Shown: positions 11,462 through 23,907 of the stretch, piece by piece
Layout of the letters: every line of letters begins with the position of its first letter
How positions within the stretch are numbered: position 1 is the first letter of the stretch
Source: an uncultured Myxococcales bacterium
Lineage (GTDB): Bacteria > Myxococcota_A > Polyangia > Palsa-1104 > JAEUJZ01
Direction of reading: 5' to 3'
DNA length: 35,388 nt
Assembly: GCA_937868485.1 (NCBI GenBank)
Contig: CALMML010000355.1
Location: forward strand, 1 to 35,388
Position numbers and translations under genes: made by a program
The notes under the pieces: generated by a model
Databases searched by the model: none
The model's input: the letters and a program-made list of their open reading frames with translations, nothing else
Told to the model about the DNA's origin: nothing

Positions 11462-12721
11462 ATGTCCGTTTTGCGTGCCCTGACCATGGGCCTTGTGATC
11501 TTTTGGCAAGTTGTTGCTTGCGCAAAAGTTATAGCGACTGAAGTATCTGCGCCCGCGTTTTCCCTTGCAGAGCTACTCGCGGAAGTTGCGACGCAGAGTC
11601 CTGCGCTGCGAAGCAAGCTGCACGCCACCCACGCGGCCAAGACCCGCGCCGCGCAAGCTGGAGCGTTTGAAGATCCGATGGTGATGGTCGAGCTGTGGCA
11701 GGCTCCCACCACGCTGTCGCGACTGCCGCTGATGGTGACGCTCAGACAGCCGCTGCCGTGGCTGGGAAAGCTCAAGGCGCGTAGTCAGGTTGCGCAGCTG
11801 GATGGGCAGCGCGCGCAGCTGGAAGAAGCGCTACAGAAGCGGAGCCTGACGCTGTCGGCAGTTCGTGCGTACTATCAGCTTGCGCTCGCGCACCGGCAGC
11901 TGGAAGTACAGAAGCAGAATCAGAAGCTGCTGCAAGTGATTGTCTCGTCGGTGGATGTTCGCTATCGGGTGGGTCGGGCCGAGCTTGCAGAGCTGCTCGA
12001 TGCGCAGGAAGCAACGCACGAACAAGAGACAGTTCTGTACGAGCTTGTGCGTGAACAGGAGCTGGCAGAGACCGAGCTTCTGTCTCTGCTCGGAGAGTCT
12101 TCGCAGCGGTCGCTCGGGATTCCGCAGCTGAACACTCAGCTTGCGACGCTTCCGTCGCTGGATGTGCTGATAGAAGAAGCGATGCAGCATCGTCCAGAGC
12201 TGTTCCTGGGTGAGCTGCTCCGCAAGCAAGCACACGCGAAAGGAACGGTGGCGCGTCATGAACAAGCACCTGACTTCGCGGTATCGGCGAGTGTGATGGT
12301 TCCGGTTCGTGGCGACATGGAACAAGCATTTACCGTCGGTGTTTCATCCAGCATTCCGTCCTTTTCGCTGGTCAAAAGTCACGCCGCGCAGCGCGAAGCG
12401 GAACAGATGGAACAGACAGCGGTGCAGGATCAAAAGCAGCTTCAAGCCAGCATCACTGCGGAAGTTCGTGCTGCGTATCTGCGCGTATCGACGGTTCACA
12501 AACACCTGACGCTGCATCGGGATGATCTGATTCCTTTGTCGGATCGCGCAGTGCAAGCCGCACGCGCGGGCTATCAGAGCGGCAAGCTGGGACTGTCTCT
12601 GCTGCTGTCCGCCACGCAGCGCTTGATTCAGCAGAGACTCAGCTATGAACGCTATCTGGCGGAGTATGGACTGCGACGCGCAGAACTGGATCTGGCCGTC
12701 GGAAAGGAAGTGTCCCCATGA
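11462..12721 (+). CDS. cusC: TolC-family outer-membrane efflux channel (CusC-like)
   Basis: 419 residues with an N-terminal signal region (about 1-26) and the two internally repeated coiled-coil halves of TolC-type channels: SLAELLAEVATQSPALRSK near 33, then LPLMVTLRQPLPWLGKLKAR, the family's strand/helix junction, and a second repeat from about 220 (IEEAMQHRPEL). It forms the outer-membrane tunnel of a tripartite heavy-metal pump. A strong ribosome site GGAGG (11450-11454) lies 7 bases before the ATG. The stop overlaps the cusB start (ATGA), so the genes are co-translated. The assignment to the Cus type comes from its neighbours. No clear lipobox cysteine is placed for acylation, although C20 is in the hydrophobic region. 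Confidence 0.9.
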   Translation: MSVLRALTMGLVIFWQVVACAKVIATEVSAPAFSLAELLAEVATQSPALRSKLHATHAAKTRAAQAGAFEDPMVMVELWQAPTTLSRLPLMVTLRQPLPWLGKLKARSQVAQLDGQRAQLEEALQKRSLTLSAVRAYYQLALAHRQLEVQKQNQKLLQVIVSSVDVRYRVGRAELAELLDAQEATHEQETVLYELVREQELAETELLSLLGESSQRSLGIPQLNTQLATLPSLDVLIEEAMQHRPELFLGELLRKQAHAKGTVARHEQAPDFAVSASVMVPVRGDMEQAFTVGVSSSIPSFSLVKSHAAQREAEQMEQTAVQDQKQLQASITAEVRAAYLRVSTVHKHLTLHRDDLIPLSDRAVQAARAGYQSGKLGLSLLLSATQRLIQQRLSYERYLAEYGLRRAELDLAVGKEVSP

Positions 12722-14199
12722 GCGAACAGAGTCCGCACAACAAAGCGATCCGTGCGCGTACCGTGATGATGGGATTGCTGCTGCTTCTGCCTTCGCTTTG
12801 CGCGCTGTGGCTGTACCGTGAGCTGTCTGCGCTACAGACGAAGCGTACATCCAGTTCAACGATGAAAGGAGACGCTCAGCAAGCAGAGCTGTGGACGTGT
12901 CCGATGCATCTTCAGTATGTGCTCGATCACTTCGGAACGTGTCCGATCTGCGGCATGGATCTGGTTCCGCAAAAGAGCCTAAAGAAGACAGAGACTCCGT
13001 CGCTGCACATCGATTCCGGTCAGCAAAAACTGCTGGGACTTCGCTTTGTCAGCGTGCAGCGCGCGCCGTTTGGGCAAGCGATTCGGACAACTGGAAGGCT
13101 GGCTTATGATGAGACGCTGGTGCATCACATCCACACCAAATATGAAGCCTATGTAGAGCATCTTTTCGCAAACTACGTAGGCAAAGCGGTCAAAAAGGGA
13201 GAGCCGCTCGTATCGCTCTACAGTCCCGAGCTGTACAGCGCAGAGCAGGAATACTTGATCGCGCAGAAGGCCGGAACAGCGACGGTACATGGCGGGATCA
13301 ACTTGGTGGATGCAGCACGCGAAAAGCTGCTCTTGTGGAACCTAAGTCCGCAAGACATCGCAACGCTAGAGCGCAGCGGACGCGCGAGCCGAACCTTCAA
13401 CTTGTATGCGCCCATTGCGGGCTACGTGATTGCCAAGACAGCGGTTCACGGAATGCGGATCAAGCCGGAAGACTCGCTGTTTGACATCGTGGATCTGTCG
13501 CGCATGTGGGTGCTGGCCGATGTCTATGAATACGAGCTTCCACGCGTCAAGCTGGGACAGACAGCGACGGTCACCCTGCCCTACTGGCCGGATCGCAAGT
13601 GGCAGGGAACGATCAGCTTCATCTTCCCTTCGGTGGATCCCAAGACACGAACGGTGCGGGTGCGGATCGAAGTACACAATCCAAGCAGTGATCTCAAAGC
13701 AGACATGTTTGCGGATGTCGAGCTGAAAGTCGAAAGCAGGGAAGCGCTGGTGATTCCCGACGATGCGGTGATTGAAACAGGAAGACGGAAGCTGGTGTTC
13801 GTCAAAGACGCAGAGGGAAGCTTGCAGCAGCGCGAGATCGTCACCGCAGAGCGCTCTGGACACCTGTTTGAGGTCAGGAGCGGGCTTCAGGAGGGCGAGC
13901 TGGTGGCGCAAGGATCGAGCTTCCTGCTCGATTCCGAAGCACGGCTTCAGAGTGGATTTCTCGACGAAAAAGCAGCAGTGGATCTGGGTCCAGCGCAGCC
14001 ACAAACGGATCACAGCGCGCACATGAATCATGGCGCTGGAGCGGATCACAGCGCACACATGAATCATGGCGCTGGAGCGGATCACAGCGCGCACATGAAT
14101 CATGGCGCTGGAGCTGATCACAGCGCACACATGAATCATGGTTCTGGAGTGGATCACAGCGCGCACAAGCATCACGCGGCGCAAGGACAGACGCCATGA
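12718..14199 (+). CDS. cusB: RND periplasmic adaptor with metal-binding domain and His/Met-rich tail (CusB-like)
   Basis: 493 residues. An N-terminal membrane anchor (about 15-33) is followed by a heavy-metal-binding domain with WTCPMH and GTCPICGMDLVP (59-84), then the usual lipoyl, alpha-hairpin and barrel parts of membrane fusion proteins (about 105-425; for example NLYAPIAGYVIAK and DLSRMWVLADVYE). The C-terminus (431-485) is an unusual tandem repeat of DHSAHMNHGAGA, very rich in His and Met and suited to binding Cu or Ag. CusB links the inner-membrane pump to the outer-membrane channel and hands metal to CusA. It overlaps cusC and cusA by ATGA junctions. Adaptor and metal role are secure; the tail's metal role is inferred. 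Confidence 0.93.
   Translation: MSEQSPHNKAIRARTVMMGLLLLLPSLCALWLYRELSALQTKRTSSSTMKGDAQQAELWTCPMHLQYVLDHFGTCPICGMDLVPQKSLKKTETPSLHIDSGQQKLLGLRFVSVQRAPFGQAIRTTGRLAYDETLVHHIHTKYEAYVEHLFANYVGKAVKKGEPLVSLYSPELYSAEQEYLIAQKAGTATVHGGINLVDAAREKLLLWNLSPQDIATLERSGRASRTFNLYAPIAGYVIAKTAVHGMRIKPEDSLFDIVDLSRMWVLADVYEYELPRVKLGQTATVTLPYWPDRKWQGTISFIFPSVDPKTRTVRVRIEVHNPSSDLKADMFADVELKVESREALVIPDDAVIETGRRKLVFVKDAEGSLQQREIVTAERSGHLFEVRSGLQEGELVAQGSSFLLDSEARLQSGFLDEKAAVDLGPAQPQTDHSAHMNHGAGADHSAHMNHGAGADHSAHMNHGAGADHSAHMNHGSGVDHSAHKHHAAQGQTP
14008..14178 (+). repeat. 36-bp tandem repeats in the cusB 3' end
   Basis: Four full 36-base units start at 14008, 14044, 14080 and 14116, with a diverged partial fifth at 14152-14178. 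They are in frame and encode DHSAHMNHGAGA-like units. Units 1-3 are almost identical, and differences such as GCGCAC versus GCACAC alternate between units. The array could change length by slippage or recombination without breaking the frame. Confidence 0.95.
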
Positions 14200-17100
14200 T
14201 TGCCAAGCTGATTGCGCTGTGTGCGCGAAATCGTCTGCTGGTGGTGATGCTGTCTGCGGTGGCGTGTGTCGTCGCTGTGATGTGTCTGAAAGCGATTCCG
14301 CTCGATGCGATTCCTGATCTATCGGACACCCAAGTGATTGTCTATTCACGCTGGGAACAGAGCCCGGATCGAATCGAAGATCAGGTGACGTATCCGATCA
14401 TTACGTCGTTGCTCGGTGCGCCAAAAGTGAAGGGAATCCGCGGCTTTAGTGACTTCGGCTATTCCTACGTGTACGTCCTGTTTGAAGACGGAACCGACAT
14501 CTACTGGGCGCGCTCGCGGGTGCTGGAATATCTGTCGAAGATCAAGTCGAAGCTGCCCAAAGAAGTGTCCACAGAGCTGGGTCCAGATGCCACCGGCGTA
14601 GGCTGGGTGTTTCAGTACGCGCTCGTCGATGAGAGTGGGAAAAACTCCCTGTCGGATCTGCGTTCCTATCAAGACTGGTTTCTGCGCTTTGCGGTGCAGT
14701 CTGTTCCCGGTGTCGCAGAGGTCGCAACGGTGGGAGGCGCGGTCAAACAGTATCAAGTCACGGTCGATCCCAATCGCTTGCAATCGTACGGAATCAGCCT
14801 GGCGGAAGTCGCAGAAGCGCTGCGCAAGAGCAACGCAGAAGTGGGCGGCAGGCTGGTGGAGATCTCTGGAAAAGAGTTCATGGTGCGCGGTCGTGGCTAC
14901 GTCAAGTCGATCGCGGATCTGGAACAGGTGGTGCTGCGCACAAACGATCTGGGAACGCCGCTGCGGATTGCCGATATTGGTCGTGTCAGCCTCGGTCCAG
15001 AGCTTCGCAGAGGCGTCGCAGATTTAGACGGACGCGGTGAAGTGGTGGGCGGAATTGTGGTGATGCGAATGGGCGAACATGCGCTGTCTGTGATTGAGCG
15101 CGTGAAGGATCGGCTGCATCAGCTAGAACCTTCCCTACCGAAAGGAGTCCGCATTGTCACAACCTATGATCGGTCCGAATTGATCCTGCGCGCGATCGAT
15201 ACGCTGCGTCATGAGCTGATGGTGGAAATCGCGGTGGTGTCGATCATCATCTTGCTGTTTCTGTGGCACATTCCGTCGGCGATTGTTCCGATTGTGACCA
15301 TTCCGGTTGCGGTCCTTCTGTCGTTTGTGCCGCTGTATCTGCTCGGTGTTCCGGCCAACCTAATGTCTCTGTCCGGCATTGCGATCTCGATCGGAGTCCT
15401 GGTCGATGGCGCGATCGTGGAAGTCGAAAACGCGTATCGCAAGATTCAGAAGTGGCAGGAGTCGGGTTCCCAAGAAGACTTCGGACTGGTTCGTCTGCGT
15501 GCCTTGCAAGAGGTCGGCCCGTCGGTGTTTTTCTCTCTGCTGGTGATTGCGGTGGCGTTTTTGCCGGTCTTTACGCTGGTCGATCAAGAAGGTCGGCTGT
15601 TTCGTCCGCTCGCGCTGAGCAAGAACCTGGCGATGGCAATTGCTGCGATCTTGGCGGTCACACTCGATCCAGCGCTGCGCATGATGCTGTCACGGATTAC
15701 GCCGTATCGATTCCGTCCCGCGCTGCTCGCCTCACTGTGTAACAGAGTGCTGGTCGGAACCTATCATCGCGAAGAAGATCATCCGATCAGTCGCGTGCTG
15801 TTTCGCGTCTATGATCCGGTCTGTCGCTTTGTCCTTCATCATCCCAAGAGCGTGATCTTGGGTGCGCTGTTTCTGACGCTGAGCACGATTCCCATCTATC
15901 AGCGCTTGGGATCAGAGTTTATGCCTCCGCTGCATGAAGGAAGCATTCTGTACATGCCAACCACGCTGCCCGGAGTGTCTGCGCAAGAAGCACAAAGGAT
16001 CCTAACGATTCAAGACAGGGTGCTGCATGAGTTTCCTGAAGTGCAGTCTGTGTTTGGGAAAGCAGGACGCGCAGATACGTCGACGGACCCCGCGCCTCTG
16101 TCGATGATGGAGACGACGATTGTGCTCCATCCCGAGTCGCGCTGGCGCAAAAAGCCGCGCTTTTATTCGGGCTGGTCATGGCTTCCCAATGTGATGAAAG
16201 ACGAGCTGCGATCTCTGTGGCCGGATCACATCACGCATGAAGAGCTGGTGACAGAGCTAGACAGAGCGCTGCGGATCGCAGGAACCACCAATGCGTGGAC
16301 GATGCCGATCAAGGCGCGACTGGACATGTTATCGACGGGAGTTCGCACACCGATTGGCATCAAGATCTTCGGACAGAGTCCCAAAGAGCTGGATCAGCTG
16401 GGTGCGCAGATTGAAGCGATTGTGCGCACAGTGGAAGGAACGCGATCGGTCTTTGCAGAGCGCACAACCGGCGGATACTTTCTGGACTTTACGCTGCACA
16501 GAGAAGCGCTGAGCCGCTACGGACTGTCTGTGGAAGATGCCAACAGCGTGATCGCGCAAGCCATCGGCGGAGAGTCTGTCACGACGACGATTGAAGGAAG
16601 GGAGCGCTACGCTGTAAGCCTTCGTTATCCGCGTGAGCTGCGCCAAGATCTGAAAGAGCTTTCGCGTGCGCTGATTCCGATTCCGAGCGGTGGCAGCATT
16701 CCGATTGGACAAGTCGCAGCGCTTTCACTGACCACGGGACCGTCCATGCTGCGCGATGAAAACGGAATGCTCGCAGCGTATGTCTACGTAGACTTTGATA
16801 CGTCGCAAAGAGACATCGGAAGCTATGTCGAGGAAGCCCGAAGTGCCGTCGCTGCGAAGCTGAGTCTGCCGAGTGGCTATCGCTTGGAGTGGAGCGGTCA
16901 GTTTGAAAACATGCTGCGCGTCAAAGAGCGACTTCGGCTGGTGGTTCCTCTTACGATCTTGCTGATCTTTTTGCTGCTCTACGCGAGCACACAGAGCGCA
17001 TGGAAAGCGACGATTGTGATGCTGGCGGTTCCGTTTTCTGCGGTGGGTGCAATCTGGCTGCTCTATCTGCTCGGCTACAACACGTCGGTGGCGGTCTGGG

Positions 17101-17471
17101 TTGGGGTGATTGCGCTGCTCGGGCTCGATGCAGAGACAGGCGTGTTCATGCTGATGTACTTGGATCTGTCCTACGAAGAAGCGAAGCAGGAAGGACGGCT
17201 GCGAAACAGACTCGATCTGATCGAAGCGGTGGTTCACGGAGCGGTCAAGAGAGTGCGTCCCAAAGCAATGACGGTGCTGGCGGCGCTGCTCGGACTGCTG
17301 CCTATTTTGTGGTCGCACGGAACGGGCGCGGATGTGATGAAGCGAATCGCAGCCCCGATGGTGGGAGGACTCGCAACATCGTTTCTGCTGGAGCTGATTG
17401 TCTATCCGCCGATCTATCTGCTCTGGAAACAGCGCGAGGTGCAAACACAGATCGAACCAAGCGAGACGTAG
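14196..17471 (+). CDS. cusA: Cu(I)/Ag(I) RND efflux pump, CusA type
   Basis: 1091 residues, a full-length heavy-metal RND inner-membrane pump driven by protons. TM1 carries the AIPLDAIPDLSDTQVIV start typical of CusA/CzcA. TM4 has the proton-relay aspartate D404 in GVLVDGAIVEVENAYRK. The three methionines that carry Cu(I)/Ag(I) in E. coli CusA have counterparts: M587 (ILYMPTTLPG), M637/M638 (PLSMMET) and M711 (LDMLSTG). That points to a monovalent-metal pump rather than a Czc-type Zn/Co/Cd pump. It ends the cusCBA operon, starting inside the cusB stop (ATGA). The stop is 15 bases before the converging acetyltransferase gene. No truncation or frameshift is seen. Confidence 0.96.
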   Translation: MIAKLIALCARNRLLVVMLSAVACVVAVMCLKAIPLDAIPDLSDTQVIVYSRWEQSPDRIEDQVTYPIITSLLGAPKVKGIRGFSDFGYSYVYVLFEDGTDIYWARSRVLEYLSKIKSKLPKEVSTELGPDATGVGWVFQYALVDESGKNSLSDLRSYQDWFLRFAVQSVPGVAEVATVGGAVKQYQVTVDPNRLQSYGISLAEVAEALRKSNAEVGGRLVEISGKEFMVRGRGYVKSIADLEQVVLRTNDLGTPLRIADIGRVSLGPELRRGVADLDGRGEVVGGIVVMRMGEHALSVIERVKDRLHQLEPSLPKGVRIVTTYDRSELILRAIDTLRHELMVEIAVVSIIILLFLWHIPSAIVPIVTIPVAVLLSFVPLYLLGVPANLMSLSGIAISIGVLVDGAIVEVENAYRKIQKWQESGSQEDFGLVRLRALQEVGPSVFFSLLVIAVAFLPVFTLVDQEGRLFRPLALSKNLAMAIAAILAVTLDPALRMMLSRITPYRFRPALLASLCNRVLVGTYHREEDHPISRVLFRVYDPVCRFVLHHPKSVILGALFLTLSTIPIYQRLGSEFMPPLHEGSILYMPTTLPGVSAQEAQRILTIQDRVLHEFPEVQSVFGKAGRADTSTDPAPLSMMETTIVLHPESRWRKKPRFYSGWSWLPNVMKDELRSLWPDHITHEELVTELDRALRIAGTTNAWTMPIKARLDMLSTGVRTPIGIKIFGQSPKELDQLGAQIEAIVRTVEGTRSVFAERTTGGYFLDFTLHREALSRYGLSVEDANSVIAQAIGGESVTTTIEGRERYAVSLRYPRELRQDLKELSRALIPIPSGGSIPIGQVAALSLTTGPSMLRDENGMLAAYVYVDFDTSQRDIGSYVEEARSAVAAKLSLPSGYRLEWSGQFENMLRVKERLRLVVPLTILLIFLLLYASTQSAWKATIVMLAVPFSAVGAIWLLYLLGYNTSVAVWVGVIALLGLDAETGVFMLMYLDLSYEEAKQEGRLRNRLDLIEAVVHGAVKRVRPKAMTVLAALLGLLPILWSHGTGADVMKRIAAPMVGGLATSFLLELIVYPPIYLLWKQREVQTQIEPSET

Positions 17472-18668: not shown

Positions 18669-21236
18669 TTAGTTCACCGATCCGTCACGACGAAGCAGCA
18701 GCTTTTCCGCCAGGTTCGCTTCCACTTCCGATCGATCGAACAGCATCTTTTCCTGCTTTCCATCGAGCCAGTTTTGATGCGTGTTGCCGTAGAACGGACT
18801 CTGTGGATCACCGGAGTTTCCGCGTGGGAAGTTGACCATCGCCGACGGAACACCCGTTCCATCAAACGTCACGATCATGCGGAACAGAGATCCCTGACGC
18901 GCGCTCCACGTCTGCTTGAGCTTGCCCGCCGCATCGCTCATCGAAGACGAGGAAACATTCACCGTTCCCACCGATCCATCGACCGGGAAGTTGCCCGCGT
19001 TCCACTTGTCTCCGAGCGGATGATCGAACGCAGCGGAGTGAACATCCTTCCACTGATACGGCATCGTCTGCGACGGGAGCGTCGATCCAAAGCGCTGCTT
19101 GAGCCAGTCCGCCGCATCCGCCAGTCCTGCCATCAGGATGTAGTTGCGGTTTGCACCAATCAGCGGCTCTGCTTCCTTCACTTTGCGCAGCGCCAGACGC
19201 ATCGGCTTGTACGCAAACGCGGGCTCCAGATCGAACAGCTTGGGAAGCAGCGGACCCAGCTCATCGGACAGCGCGCGCGTCGTCACAAAGTGAGCGAACG
19301 CAAAGAACATCACCGCTTCCGAAGACTTGCGGCGCATCTGCCGGTCCCACGAAGACATCTGCGTAAACATCCCGAGCAGCTCGGGACGATTTCGGAACGA
19401 GGCCAGGCTGGAATCGGTTCCCAGCTCGGCAATCGCTTGCGCCAGCGCCGGAAGCAGATCATCGGCCAGCGTCGATCGCGCGTCCCACTGAAGCTCTGCC
19501 ATGTCTGCCGGCGTGATCTTGCCGCGCTTCACCAGTCGCTCTAGCTCGGACTCAATCCGCGCCGCGCGATCACCCGGATCGTAGAAGTATCCGTAGTAGT
19601 ACGGATCGTTGTCGACGCGACCATCGGCGGTAAAGCCAAACGGCTCGTTGTTCGCAGTCGCCAGATAGCCACGCTCTGGATCGCGAGCCTGCGGCAGCTT
19701 GTCTTCCGAAAGGAACTTGCCCGTCCACACCGTACGCGGATCGGTTCCGTTCATCAGCTTCCACGGCTGGATTCCCTGCTTGTGCGCCATGCCGCGATCT
19801 GGAACCTGCGCATGCACGCGATAGCGAATGTTCTTCTGATCCGCCGCAACCAGGTTCACCGCGCCCACTTCTTGTCGCTTCGCTGCGCCTTCCCAGTCAT
19901 TGAGCGTCTTGCTGCGATCGAGTCCCAGATACATCGCCGCTTCATGCGTCGCCGCAAAGCCCGTCCACGCAAACAGAATCTGGTTCGGGGTCAGGATCGC
20001 GCGCGGCACCGGAAGCAGATCATCGGGAAGCAGGACGCCCACGCCGGGAACGTCGGTGATCTGGAACTCGCGCACATCGGTCATGTCATCCGCTGAAGGA
20101 ACCTTGCCACCGACGGACCGAATCCGAATCTTTTCGTTGCGGAGCTTGACCTCGCGATCGTTGCCTCCATACGAGATCTTGTTATTCGACGGCGCACCGA
20201 CTTCAAACAGATCCATCACGTCCGCAAAGTTGGTCGTCGCAGCCCACGCGACGTTGCGGTTGTGTCCAAGCTGCACGCCCGGCGTTCCCGCAAAGCCAAA
20301 GCCCACCACGTCGAGCGCTCCGCCCTTGTCCGCAGAGTTTATGTGCTGCGCAAAGAAGCGAATCGGACTTCCGTACGGCTGATGCGGATCGCCCGCCAGG
20401 ATCGGAGTCCCCGTCGCTGTCGTCTTTGCCGCCACCGCCCAGTTGTTGCTTCCCAGCTCGGGGGCCAGCTTGTCTGCTTGCGACAGCTGCGAAAGCGCCT
20501 GCGCCCGCAGCGCCGGTGAAATCGAAGGCTGCGACGGCAGACCTTGCGGTGCGACCTGCGGACCGGCGATTCCCTGCGGCACGGCCCCCGGCATCGTGAA
20601 GGCATTGCGCGTCGGCATGCACATCGGAAAATCCGTCGGAAACATCGGCGTCAGCACCTTCAGCACCGAGGCCAGCAGCTCGCTATCAATGCTCGACGAC
20701 ATGCCAAACGACAGCATCTTGCCGACGATGTAGGGATCGTCATCGCTCCACTCTGTCGGCACAAAGTCGAGCGCATCCTTGGCCATCTCTGGCGGCAGCG
20801 ACGCTTCCCCTTTCTTCACCCGCGAGATGTAGTGATTGATGCCGCGCACAAACGCTTCGATCAGCTGCGCTTCATCGGGATAGTCCTGTCGCATTGCCTC
20901 GCGAGAGCGCCGTCCCCACTCCGCAAACGCAAACGTCCGCGCCAGGAGGTCGCCGCGCAGTCCTTTTTCACCGACCACTTCCGACTGCGTTCCGTACGCT
21001 TGTCGTCGCACCATCTCTAGCTGGAACAGGCGCAGCTTCGCCATCACGTACCCCGACGCAAACAGCGCGTCTCGGTCGCTCGCTGCGTAGATGTGCGGAA
21101 TGCCCATCTGGTCGATCAGCACTTCGGTATCTGCACCCAGCGGAAGATCGATCGTCGTAGGGCTACAAGCCGGAACCGACAGCGCCAGGGCCAAAGCGGG
21201 ACCCAGACGCCACGCAGACAGGAACTTGGTCTTCAT
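18669..21236 (-). CDS. Penicillin-acylase-family Ntn hydrolase, secreted/lipoprotein
   Basis: 855 residues, the size of penicillin G/AHL acylase precursors. A signal peptide ends in VPAC (C24), a lipobox-like but imperfect site, so it may be a lipoprotein. The N-terminal chain (about 30-200) starts with VLIDQMGIPHIYAASDRDALF. The family self-cleaves before a serine that becomes the nucleophile; here ELGSNNWAV gives G262-S263, the expected cut, preceded by a Pro/Gln-rich linker. Later GDPHQPYGSPIRFF (281-294) and the conserved TANNEPFGF asparagine region support an active Ntn hydrolase. Known substrates of the family include penicillins, homoserine lactones and acyl amino acids; which applies here is open. 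It lies upstream of the HGSNAT-like gene (27-base gap). Confidence 0.9.
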   Translation of the reverse strand: MKTKFLSAWRLGPALALALSVPACSPTTIDLPLGADTEVLIDQMGIPHIYAASDRDALFASGYVMAKLRLFQLEMVRRQAYGTQSEVVGEKGLRGDLLARTFAFAEWGRRSREAMRQDYPDEAQLIEAFVRGINHYISRVKKGEASLPPEMAKDALDFVPTEWSDDDPYIVGKMLSFGMSSSIDSELLASVLKVLTPMFPTDFPMCMPTRNAFTMPGAVPQGIAGPQVAPQGLPSQPSISPALRAQALSQLSQADKLAPELGSNNWAVAAKTTATGTPILAGDPHQPYGSPIRFFAQHINSADKGGALDVVGFGFAGTPGVQLGHNRNVAWAATTNFADVMDLFEVGAPSNNKISYGGNDREVKLRNEKIRIRSVGGKVPSADDMTDVREFQITDVPGVGVLLPDDLLPVPRAILTPNQILFAWTGFAATHEAAMYLGLDRSKTLNDWEGAAKRQEVGAVNLVAADQKNIRYRVHAQVPDRGMAHKQGIQPWKLMNGTDPRTVWTGKFLSEDKLPQARDPERGYLATANNEPFGFTADGRVDNDPYYYGYFYDPGDRAARIESELERLVKRGKITPADMAELQWDARSTLADDLLPALAQAIAELGTDSSLASFRNRPELLGMFTQMSSWDRQMRRKSSEAVMFFAFAHFVTTRALSDELGPLLPKLFDLEPAFAYKPMRLALRKVKEAEPLIGANRNYILMAGLADAADWLKQRFGSTLPSQTMPYQWKDVHSAAFDHPLGDKWNAGNFPVDGSVGTVNVSSSSMSDAAGKLKQTWSARQGSLFRMIVTFDGTGVPSAMVNFPRGNSGDPQSPFYGNTHQNWLDGKQEKMLFDRSEVEANLAEKLLLRRDGSVN

Positions 21237-21316
21237 ACGCGGAACATAACAGCAATTGTCCGTGCCTGGTCAACAGCACCGTGGCGTAACACTGCATGTA
21301 TGGTAGGGTCCGTTTC

Positions 21317-22369
21317 GTGCAAGTGGTTCGTAAGCTCGCTTCTCCTCTCGTGTCCGCTGCGGCGCTCGTCCTTCTTCTGACAGCGCTGCTCGGAGCGTCG
21401 TCGTCGTCACTCGGTTCGTCGTCACTTGGTTCGTCGCTGCCCGTTGCTTCGCCGACTGTCCCGAACGCGCCAACGCCTGCCGCTTCACCTGCGTCCGATG
21501 CCGAAGCGCCCGCGCCCAGCCAGACCTTCTTGGGAATGGACGACGAGCTACTGCTTCACCGTCTACGCCACGCCGACATTCGCAGCGTTCACTTCAGCAA
21601 AGGCGGCAGCTCGCTGGTCCTGCGCATCGAGTTTTCCGACGGAAGCCGCGCCGCGTTTAAGCCTGAGCAGATCAATCCTCAGTCGGTTCCGCGCAAAGAA
21701 GCAGCGGCGTATCAGCTGTCGCGAAAGCTGGGAATTGCAGCGGTTCCACCGACGGTGATGCGAGCCATCTCGCGAGATGAGCTGGTGCAAAAGCTGGATG
21801 CCGAGTCGCAGTGGGTCCGTCCGAGGCTGCTACGCGAAGCGATCTTCAGCGCCGAAGGAATGACCGTCGGTTCGATGATGTATTGGGTGCCAAGCCTGGC
21901 GGATCTCCGTCTGGACAGCGACGAAGCCATCCGAGCCTGGACCGTCGAGCTAAGCCAGCAAGGTGAGCTGTCCGACGAGCGAACGACGCTGCTTGCTCAG
22001 CTCTCGACGCTGCTTGCGTTTGACTTCATCCAAAACAACTCCGATCGCTTTTCCGGCGGCAACATCGTTGGATCCCGCGATCGTCGCACCCTGTTTTTCA
22101 TCGACAACGCGTTCGGCTTCCAAACCGATCCGCACGGGCACCTGCGCGCGCTCGGCTACTTGCAGCGCTGTCAGAAGTTTTCGCGTCGGCTGTGGACTTC
22201 TCTTCAGCTTCTGTCCGACGAAGACTTGGTGTTTCACGATCCGCTGACGGGACCGCTGCTGTCGCCCGATGAGGTGTCGGCACTGCGCAGCCGTCGCGAT
22301 CGTGTCGTGCGCTATCTGACGCAGCTCATCCGCAGCCACGGTGAAGACGCGGTGCTGGCCTTCCGCTAG
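21317..22369 (+). CDS. Predicted extracytoplasmic FAM20/HipA/PI4K-like kinase
   Basis: 350 residues if started at GTG 21317, chosen because TAGGG lies 8 bases upstream and the signal peptide then begins at once; ATG 21296 would add seven residues without a ribosome site. A signal peptide (to about 26) is followed by a Ser/Leu/Gly and Ala/Pro-rich linker coded partly by a 15-base direct repeat (21404-21433). The kinase-like part shows AAFKPEQ (K115), RKEAAAYQL (E128), VPPTVMR, GSMMYWVPS (hinge), FIQNNSDRFSGGNI (D243, N249) and FFIDNAFGF (D263). These match the order of ion-pair Lys, helix Glu, catalytic Asp and metal-binding Asp in atypical FAM20/HipA/PI4K-like kinases. All key residues seem kept. 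The substrate is unknown; location is probably periplasmic or surface. Confidence 0.62.
   Translation: MQVVRKLASPLVSAAALVLLLTALLGASSSSLGSSSLGSSLPVASPTVPNAPTPAASPASDAEAPAPSQTFLGMDDELLLHRLRHADIRSVHFSKGGSSLVLRIEFSDGSRAAFKPEQINPQSVPRKEAAAYQLSRKLGIAAVPPTVMRAISRDELVQKLDAESQWVRPRLLREAIFSAEGMTVGSMMYWVPSLADLRLDSDEAIRAWTVELSQQGELSDERTTLLAQLSTLLAFDFIQNNSDRFSGGNIVGSRDRRTLFFIDNAFGFQTDPHGHLRALGYLQRCQKFSRRLWTSLQLLSDEDLVFHDPLTGPLLSPDEVSALRSRRDRVVRYLTQLIRSHGEDAVLAFR
22366..22369. other. CTAG palindrome serving as stop codon for two converging genes
   Basis: The kinase gene ends with TAG at 22367-22369, and the phosphatase gene on the other strand ends with TAG read from 22368-22366. The palindrome CTAG therefore stops both, giving a 4-base convergent overlap with no room for a separate terminator. 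Confidence 0.95.
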
Positions 22370-23907
22370 CTCGGGCGACGGATCGCCACGATCGCAAAGT
22401 CGTTGTCGCGTAGGCTCGGATAGCGACGACGCAGCCACGCAGCCACTTCGTCCAGCACGCGCTCTGGGTTCGACTCCTGAGCCCGCAGCGTCGCAGCCAG
22501 CGCTGCTTCGTCCCGCGCACGCTCCTCGGGCAGTTCACGACCGGCGCTCATACACAGCAGCGTCGATCCCAGCGGAATCGTTCCCGACGAGCGATACAGC
22601 GGACCGACGATGCCGGGCGGAAGCTCCGACTCCATCGGCAGAAGCCGAGGCTGCTCCGTCACTGGCTGATCAAACAGCAGAAGCTGCGTCTTTTCACCGA
22701 GCAGCGCCTCGAACGAACCACTTGGCTCGACACGCAGAAGCAGCAGTCCAATCGGCCTTGTCAGCGGAATTTCCGTCGTCGCAGCCCCGAGAAGCCCAGC
22801 CTGCACATCGAGTCCCAGCGAGCCTTGCGCGCGAAAACACTTGAGGATGTGAAGTCCGATCGACGCTGCATCAATGCCATCACCGTCGGGATCAGCCACC
22901 AGAACTTCCGCATGTCCGTCGCAGATTCGCGTATCAAAGACCATGCCATCGACGGCTTCTTTGGCCTGATCGACCTGTCCGGTAATCGTCAGCGACGATC
23001 CATCCGACGGAAGCGACAGCGACTCTTTGCGCATCGCATCGAAGATCGCCAGCTTGGCCGCTGCGTAGCGACGACCGACATCCAAAAGCCGCAGCTTGTC
23101 CCGTCGCGCCGTGATGCTCTGAATCAGGATCAGTGCGACGAAGAACACGATCATCCCAAGCCCTTTGAGGTACTTGGTGCGCACCGAGCCATTCACCCTC
23201 GACATATCGAAGGCAATCAGCAGCGCGCCCACCTGCGAAGATCCCGTCGCAGACTCAGTGAGCAGCGGAACCAGCGCCCATGTCGTGGTGTCGTCTCGTC
23301 GACGATTTTCATCACGCAGTCGGTCTTGATACACGATCTGCGCACGCAGCGGCGGCAGCGGACTCGGCGTCACAAACCAGCCCACCACCTGCCCGAGAAC
23401 ATCGTTGTAGATCTGCGGCAAGTCCCGGTAGCGACTGGCCGAGAGCCGCTGCTTAAATCCGTCGGGATCGAACAGGATGCCGCGCAGGTCGCGATCCAGC
23501 CAGTGTCCGTAGTGATCGCCAAATGATCCTTTTCCCCGTCGCAGATAGTCCAGCTCGAAGCGCTGATCGATTCGCTCGTAGACCGTCTTGCCCGACTGAT
23601 CGACCACACGCAAAAACACCGCATCTTCGTCGTCGAGCACACCGGACGCGAGCCGTTCCAGCATCTTGTGATCACGTCGGACCAGTGGATCGACGATGGC
23701 TCGCTCGAGGATGCCCGCATAGTTCAGACCCTTTTGACGGATCTGATCACGCAGGACGTTGACCTCGAACAGCGTCTGGTTCCAGTCGACCAAGACCTCG
23801 ACGCCGCACGCGACAATCAGACCGAGCAAGAAGAACTGGCTGCTGTGTGCCAGCCGTTCGGACAGTCGAGCGCGCCAGGCGGCAAAGCGCGACGGCTGCC
23901 TCGGCAT
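22366..23907 (-). CDS. Membrane sensor with eroded SpoIIE-like PP2C phosphatase domain
   Basis: 513 residues. Two membrane helices (about 24-42 and 247-265) enclose a periplasmic sensor region with LDDEDAVFLRVVDQSGKTVYERID, typical of extracytoplasmic sensor folds. The cytoplasmic part (about 275-513) follows the SpoIIE/RsbU layout: VDGMVFD, VLVADPDGDGIDAASIG, IPLGSTLLCMSAGRELPEERA, and LRDNDFAIVAIRRP. In active members the third motif reads close to YTDG and the last has DD; here they are MSAG and DN, so at least one metal ligand is lost. It may be a weak or regulatory pseudo-phosphatase. The start lies one base after the stop of the sugar transferase, so both are in one operon, suggesting a link to polysaccharide control. 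Confidence 0.65.
   Translation of the reverse strand: MPRQPSRFAAWRARLSERLAHSSQFFLLGLIVACGVEVLVDWNQTLFEVNVLRDQIRQKGLNYAGILERAIVDPLVRRDHKMLERLASGVLDDEDAVFLRVVDQSGKTVYERIDQRFELDYLRRGKGSFGDHYGHWLDRDLRGILFDPDGFKQRLSASRYRDLPQIYNDVLGQVVGWFVTPSPLPPLRAQIVYQDRLRDENRRRDDTTTWALVPLLTESATGSSQVGALLIAFDMSRVNGSVRTKYLKGLGMIVFFVALILIQSITARRDKLRLLDVGRRYAAAKLAIFDAMRKESLSLPSDGSSLTITGQVDQAKEAVDGMVFDTRICDGHAEVLVADPDGDGIDAASIGLHILKCFRAQGSLGLDVQAGLLGAATTEIPLTRPIGLLLLRVEPSGSFEALLGEKTQLLLFDQPVTEQPRLLPMESELPPGIVGPLYRSSGTIPLGSTLLCMSAGRELPEERARDEAALAATLRAQESNPERVLDEVAAWLRRRYPSLRDNDFAIVAIRRPS

Follow-up and report, generated by a model that had tools for sequence, protein, structure and literature searches.

The window, a stretch of 35,388 nucleotides from an uncultured Myxococcales bacterium, carries a conserved gene for a Fam20-like kinase that belongs to a bacterial branch beside the animal Fam20 kinases and is not itself a Fam20 (Table 1). 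We consider it likely that the product is an atypical, Fam20-type kinase, either tethered to the membrane or secreted, with its catalytic domain outside the cytoplasm, in the periplasm or on the cell surface of the myxobacterium. The reading frame is a real gene and no chance ORF, because orthologs occur across the order and the class and dN/dS is low. A tblastn-type search found orthologs in 13 of the 14 genomes of the order. At class level relatives turned up in 100 of 144 genomes, or in 60 of 91 when only high-quality genomes are counted, with up to six copies per genome. Comparison of the kinase domain among same-genus orthologs from three genomes gave dN/dS values of 0.105–0.121, indicating purifying selection at about 0.12. 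An antisense reading of the stretch was rejected since stops interrupt the frame. A search for a plasmid or viral origin returned no match, and comparison with a viral structure library gave general kinase matches only.

Table 1. Features of the kinase gene and of other genes in the window (counts out of 96 refer to non-identical family members; A1 is the 31-sequence alignment)
Feature	Position	Strand	Details
Predicted exported Fam20-like kinase, coding sequence	21317..22369	+	350 aa, GTG start, TAG stop included; orthologs, selection, promoter
Alternative TAnnnT match, TATGGT, overlapping TAGGGT	21299-21304	+	
Putative -10 element TAGGGT of a leaderless promoter	21304..21309	+	TAnnnT conserved among orthologs
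Hydrophobic segment, residues 7-25 (LASPLVSAAALVLLLTALL), preceded by R5-K6	21335..21391	+	putative signal anchor or signal peptide; mean KD 2.31
Ser/Ala/Pro-rich low-complexity linker, residues about 27-69	21395..21523	+	sequence; pLDDT 42-64
Fam20-like kinase domain, residues about 70-350	21524..22366	+	pLDDT mostly 95-99; Foldseek; PDB profile search
K115, beta3-type Lys	21659..21661	+	aligns with Lys of ALFKP in human FAM20C; invariant in A1; 90/96
E128, helix-C-type Glu	21698..21700	+	aligns with Glu of NAEIAAF in FAM20C; invariant in A1; 92/96
D243, catalytic Asp of NSDR	22043..22045	+	aligns with Asp of NMDRHH in FAM20C; 95/96
N249, candidate metal-binding Asn	22061..22063	+	no Asn at the FAM20C equivalent; 93/96
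D263, DFG-type Asp of DNAFGF	22103..22105	+	aligns with Asp of LDNGRGFG in FAM20C; 95/96
CusCBA-like heavy-metal efflux set	11462-17471	+	
Penicillin-amidase/PvdQ-type acylase	18669-21236	-	Pfam 1.9e-144
SpoIIE-like phosphatase	22366-23907	-	stop codon overlaps kinase stop

The first-pass annotation had proposed a structure prediction and a comparison with FAM20C, CotH and HipA. AlphaFold2, run on an alignment of 31 family members (A1), returned a model with a mean pLDDT of 88.3 that has a kinase fold, with Fam20C, Fam20A and Fam20B as its closest PDB chains, and the sequence profiles agree. Foldseek ranks 1–28 against the PDB are all Fam20 proteins (Fam20C, Fam20A/B, the C. elegans Golgi casein kinase and hydra Fam20; E = 4e-15 to 3e-9), followed by type II phosphatidylinositol 4-kinase (PI4KII; 2e-7) and then by PI3K-type kinases. 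TM-scores against Fam20 are near 0.6, with a maximum of 0.63, in part because the query length counts the disordered N-terminus. At the sequence level, the A1 profile retrieved human and zebrafish FAM20C, FAM20A and hydra Fam20B from the PDB at E = 6.4e-23 to 3.9e-11, the first value belonging to human FAM20C, which was matched over both lobes. The alignments to Fam20 form two colinear stretches, one with the Lys-Glu region and the other with the catalytic region. FAM20C was also recovered with a single distant bacterial member as the query (1.8e-18) and with the window protein alone (1.2e-7). The Pfam Fam20C model (PF06702, cut-off 26.8 bits) matches 23 of the 31 A1 members and scores 66.6 and 63.5 bits in two distant family members; for the window protein a direct scan gave 25.0 bits (1.8e-5) and a six-frame search reported 26.8, with neighbouring matches in frame.

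The bacterial family shares with Fam20A/B/C the order of elements, namely a Gly-rich loop, the FKP Lys, the helix-C Glu, D-x4-N-x-D-R, DN-x-x-(G)F and a long C-terminal helix, and the four catalytic residues (Lys, Glu, DR Asp and DN Asp) align between the two. The Fam20 domain works outside the cytosol, and the same is predicted for the bacterial one. Fam20 kinases possess four conserved disulfides (PMC5865150), whereas the window protein has one Cys and hence none of them. Further differences are DRFS...N in the window copy (DR[FWY]S in most relatives) versus DRHH in Fam20, the extra Asn of the bacterial family (N249), and bacterial N-terminal anchor or lipoprotein signals versus Golgi targeting. 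We use the label Fam20-like because the fold and the catalytic residues agree with Fam20, the disulfides and the DRHH motif are missing, and the Pfam score is borderline. The window copy scores higher against NCBIfam TIGR03843 (SCO1664) than against Pfam Fam20C, with a significant match over residues 125-332 (4e-10, 39.5 bits) that nevertheless lies below that model's cut-off of 172.4; to our knowledge, SCO1664 proteins carry no export signal.

The protein had initially been described as FAM20/HipA-like, and only the former half of this description is borne out by the profiles and the fold. The HipA half proved unspecific, as HipA_2 matched 6 of the 31 A1 members weakly (best E 0.006), and neither HipA_C nor the HipA N-terminal domain gave a Pfam match in the window protein or the 31 A1 members. 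The window protein shares the kinase superfamily with HipA-like toxins and CotH-like coat kinases, and the HipA_2 matches would fit the former. We rejected membership in either group, since the defining domains are unmatched (Pfam CotH at E up to 1 in the 31 A1 members), no HipB-like gene was identified among the neighbours in the clusters examined, and Fam20 structures are far closer; the chance that either identity is correct is negligible. CotH, the spore-coat kinase of Bacillus, is likewise bacterial and atypical and has been likened to Fam20C (PMC12189002), but its gene setting and location also differ from those of the window family.

The kinase motifs read from the sequence at the outset (Lys, Glu, N-x-SDR...GN and DNAFGF) could all be assigned by residue, numbered from the GTG: K115 in AAFKP, E128 in RKEAAAY, N241-N-S-D243-R-F-S-G-G-N249 and D263-N-A-F-G-F. 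K115, E128, N241, D243, R244, N249 and D263 are invariant across A1. K115, E128, D243, N249 and D263 are jointly kept in 86 of the 96 non-identical family members, and all five are intact in both paralogs of the source genome, the second of which (C455:15056-15994) is 32–33% identical to the first. In one very distant member (L109), the active site is seemingly missing. ATP and Mn or Mg would be bound via K115-E128, N249 and D263, and D243 would serve as the base that moves the gamma-phosphate onto a substrate that is secreted or part of the envelope, with a protein Ser or Thr as the likeliest acceptor. Since N249 is without a FAM20C counterpart, metal binding may differ from that of Fam20. 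Computation supports the homology and fold, the intact site, the conservation and the family-wide export signals; from these we infer that the domain would be catalytically active on such a substrate, with ATP or another phosphate donor locally at hand.

Two alternatives bear on this chemistry. In one, the kinase fold serves another end, either as a pseudokinase activator like Fam20A or in an enzyme for the transfer of AMP or some other group. Fam20A and SelO-type proteins are precedents (PMC7948968), and a paralog in the source genome is what an activator/enzyme pair would lead one to expect; the joint retention of the five catalytic residues and the strong purifying selection speak against this reading, to which we assign a low probability. 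In the other, the exported kinase acts on a non-protein substrate, either an envelope-glycan sugar, by analogy with Fam20B, or a lipid, by analogy with PI4KII. PI4KII is the nearest structure after Fam20, at a TM-score of 0.46 versus up to 0.63, and its E in the A1 profile search of the PDB is only 0.03. The metal-binding Asn of N-x-S-D-R-x4-N, absent in FAM20C, is presumably present in PI4KII, and we count it for a glycan or lipid substrate. Fam20B phosphorylates xylose, and a case has been made for it as the ancestral Fam20 (PMC7948968); however, the His that follows DR in the Fam20B sugar site (His301 in hydra Fam20, PMC5865150) is Phe in the window copy, and the conserved neighbours of the kinase include no glycan- or lipid-synthesis gene. 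In our estimation a non-protein substrate is rather unlikely, and a protein substrate is preferred.

The first-pass annotation had also described a signal peptide followed by a low-complexity linker. The linker is evident as a Ser/Pro/Ala-rich region with pLDDT below 65, and the hydrophobic N-terminus, which forms a helix over residues 14-26 in the AlphaFold2 model, looks like a genuine export or anchor signal, given the charge across it and the lipoprotein or cleavable signals in divergent members; it may be an uncleaved anchor rather than a cleavable signal peptide. The kinase reading thus withstood both objections foreseen at the outset, an unrelated fold and an N-terminus that does not serve export. 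The charge in the window copy is +3 on the N side (amine counted) and 0 on the C side, and the positive-inside rule predicts from these values that the kinase domain lies outside. Sec export of the chain would rely on the positive N-terminus and hydrophobic helix, and the flexible Ser/Pro linker would hold the kinase domain off the membrane. The periplasm is not expected to contain ATP at a useful concentration, and no ATP or nucleotide transporter linked to the kinase gene was found. One may speculate that ATP comes from leakage or from lysis of neighbours or prey, or that another donor takes its place.

This ATP problem would vanish if the helix were inserted as a reverse anchor, N-terminus outside and C-terminus inside, so that the kinase domain faced the cytoplasm and used the ATP there. 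In several orthologs of the clade (e.g., L008, L027 and L029) the 15 residues past the helix match the N side in positive charge, and topology from charge alone is therefore ambiguous. Against a reverse anchor stand the charges of the window genus (+3 versus 0), the lipoprotein and cleavable signals within the family, including a cleavable-signal clade that is nested within the anchor clade in the tree, and proteins of other classes that likewise place the domain outside behind a zinc ribbon and one transmembrane helix. We see only a slim chance of a cytoplasm-facing domain, and an extracytoplasmic one remains our preferred reading.

Across the family, the export signals are diverse. The 96 members comprise 28 with a Glu-bearing transmembrane anchor, 27 of lipoprotein type, 13 of cleavable type and 28 others or unassigned, as called by a simple home-made classifier that picks among start codons and was re-labelled for Glu-bearing anchors; the gene starts of distant members are set by this classifier, so individual signal calls may be wrong. 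As a control, 1 of 27 cytosolic neighbours was called. Clear lipoboxes are seen in L106 (FLFGVLSLS/CSGT), in L105 (LIAALSLLA/CGRK) and in PMLLRAVPLVLALG/CWAT. The N-terminus of the wider anchor clade reads M[RK]L....(Y/C)...E, whereas that of the window genus is M-Q-V-V-R-K-L. The Glu conserved inside the N-terminal hydrophobic helix of clade A is lost from the window genus.

We extended the search to the phylum (141 genomes). In its other classes, eight long proteins (L134-L137, L141-L143 and L149) have exactly one transmembrane helix (8/8) and a C-terminal kinase domain, and a zinc ribbon was matched in all except L141 (7/8); Pfam did not recognise the Fam20-like domain in the scanned zinc-ribbon proteins of these classes. 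Further members there are lipoprotein-like. Phylum-wide, the family thus uses four export architectures: the Glu-bearing membrane anchor, the cleavable signal, the lipoprotein signal, and the cytoplasmic zinc ribbon with one transmembrane helix. These different devices share a single predicted outcome, which argues that the kinase domain is placed outside, and an extracytoplasmic location is well supported by the signals and topologies predicted for the four architectures. One 747-residue member (L081, G043:C12) has its Fam20-like domain after a polytopic membrane part.

The reading frame is open for 350 residues from the GTG at 21317; an ATG in frame at 21296 would extend it to 357. To compare promoters, the upstream DNA of 33 loci from the clade of the window copy was aligned on the start giving M-[RK]-L. 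A TAnnnT hexamer ends 6–12 nt 5' of the start codon at 32 of these 33 loci, which are kin and do not represent independent events, versus 0–4 of 33 in control windows (other 7-nt windows upstream); a Shine-Dalgarno core was present at 0 of 33. The simplest reading would be a leaderless mRNA that is conserved across the clade, with its 5' end at or adjacent to the start codon. Because the spacing of TAnnnT is conserved and the Shine-Dalgarno sequence is absent, the GTG is favoured over the ATG and is likely the true start, and the position of the hexamer in 32 of 33 orthologs backs the start coordinate originally annotated. A generic sigma-70 scan found no promoter at the kinase gene, the -10 signal being visible by comparison only, and a search for RNA elements found none.

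FAM20 has been placed among eukaryotic- or Metazoa-specific clusters (PMC9758233), and Fam20 has been traced from sponge to mammals (PMC7948968). We found no described case of a bacterial Fam20 or a periplasmic kinase in the literature, of which our coverage was partial, making this weak evidence. A large, ancient and catalytically intact family with several independent export signals is a candidate root for the animal Fam20 kinases. The occurrence in 60 of 91 high-quality genomes, with as many as six copies, argues for a general envelope role of the bacterial Fam20-like kinase rather than a single-genome curiosity. More boldly, myxobacteria may practice broad extracytoplasmic ATP-dependent phosphorylation through a family that is the bacterial sister of Fam20, and the animal secretory-pathway kinases may descend from an exported bacterial kinase of this sort; we regard this proposal as unlikely, and tentative at best. 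The family makes it testable in bacteria whether ATP phosphorylation proceeds beyond the cytoplasm and where the ATP originates.

Over much of the class, the kinase gene sits on one strand in the order CoaX, an unnamed gene, a ResA/TlpA-like redoxin, the kinase, (a HEAT-repeat protein), an MFS transporter and RimO. The MFS gene lies 3' of the kinase in many relatives but was not found in the source genome, and we therefore rejected it as an obligate partner. In the window genus the kinase is relocated, with the penicillin-amidase-type acylase divergent upstream, where it is conserved in the genus, and the SpoIIE-like gene convergent downstream. Functional pairing with the SpoIIE-like phosphatase was likewise rejected: the order differs in the other two genomes of the genus, with a short near-identical piece of the gene near one of the orthologs L003 and L045 and a 61% match near the other, and the gene is absent from the wider synteny. 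Hence, we claim no functional link. In each of the four genomes of the family in which the surroundings of the second paralog were read (L064-L067), it divergently adjoins a gene whose product has an IgGFc_binding domain (PF17517), making this protein a candidate substrate of the paralog and no more. Elsewhere in the window, the heavy-metal efflux set consists of an outer-membrane factor, a membrane-fusion protein with a metal-binding domain, and an RND pump.
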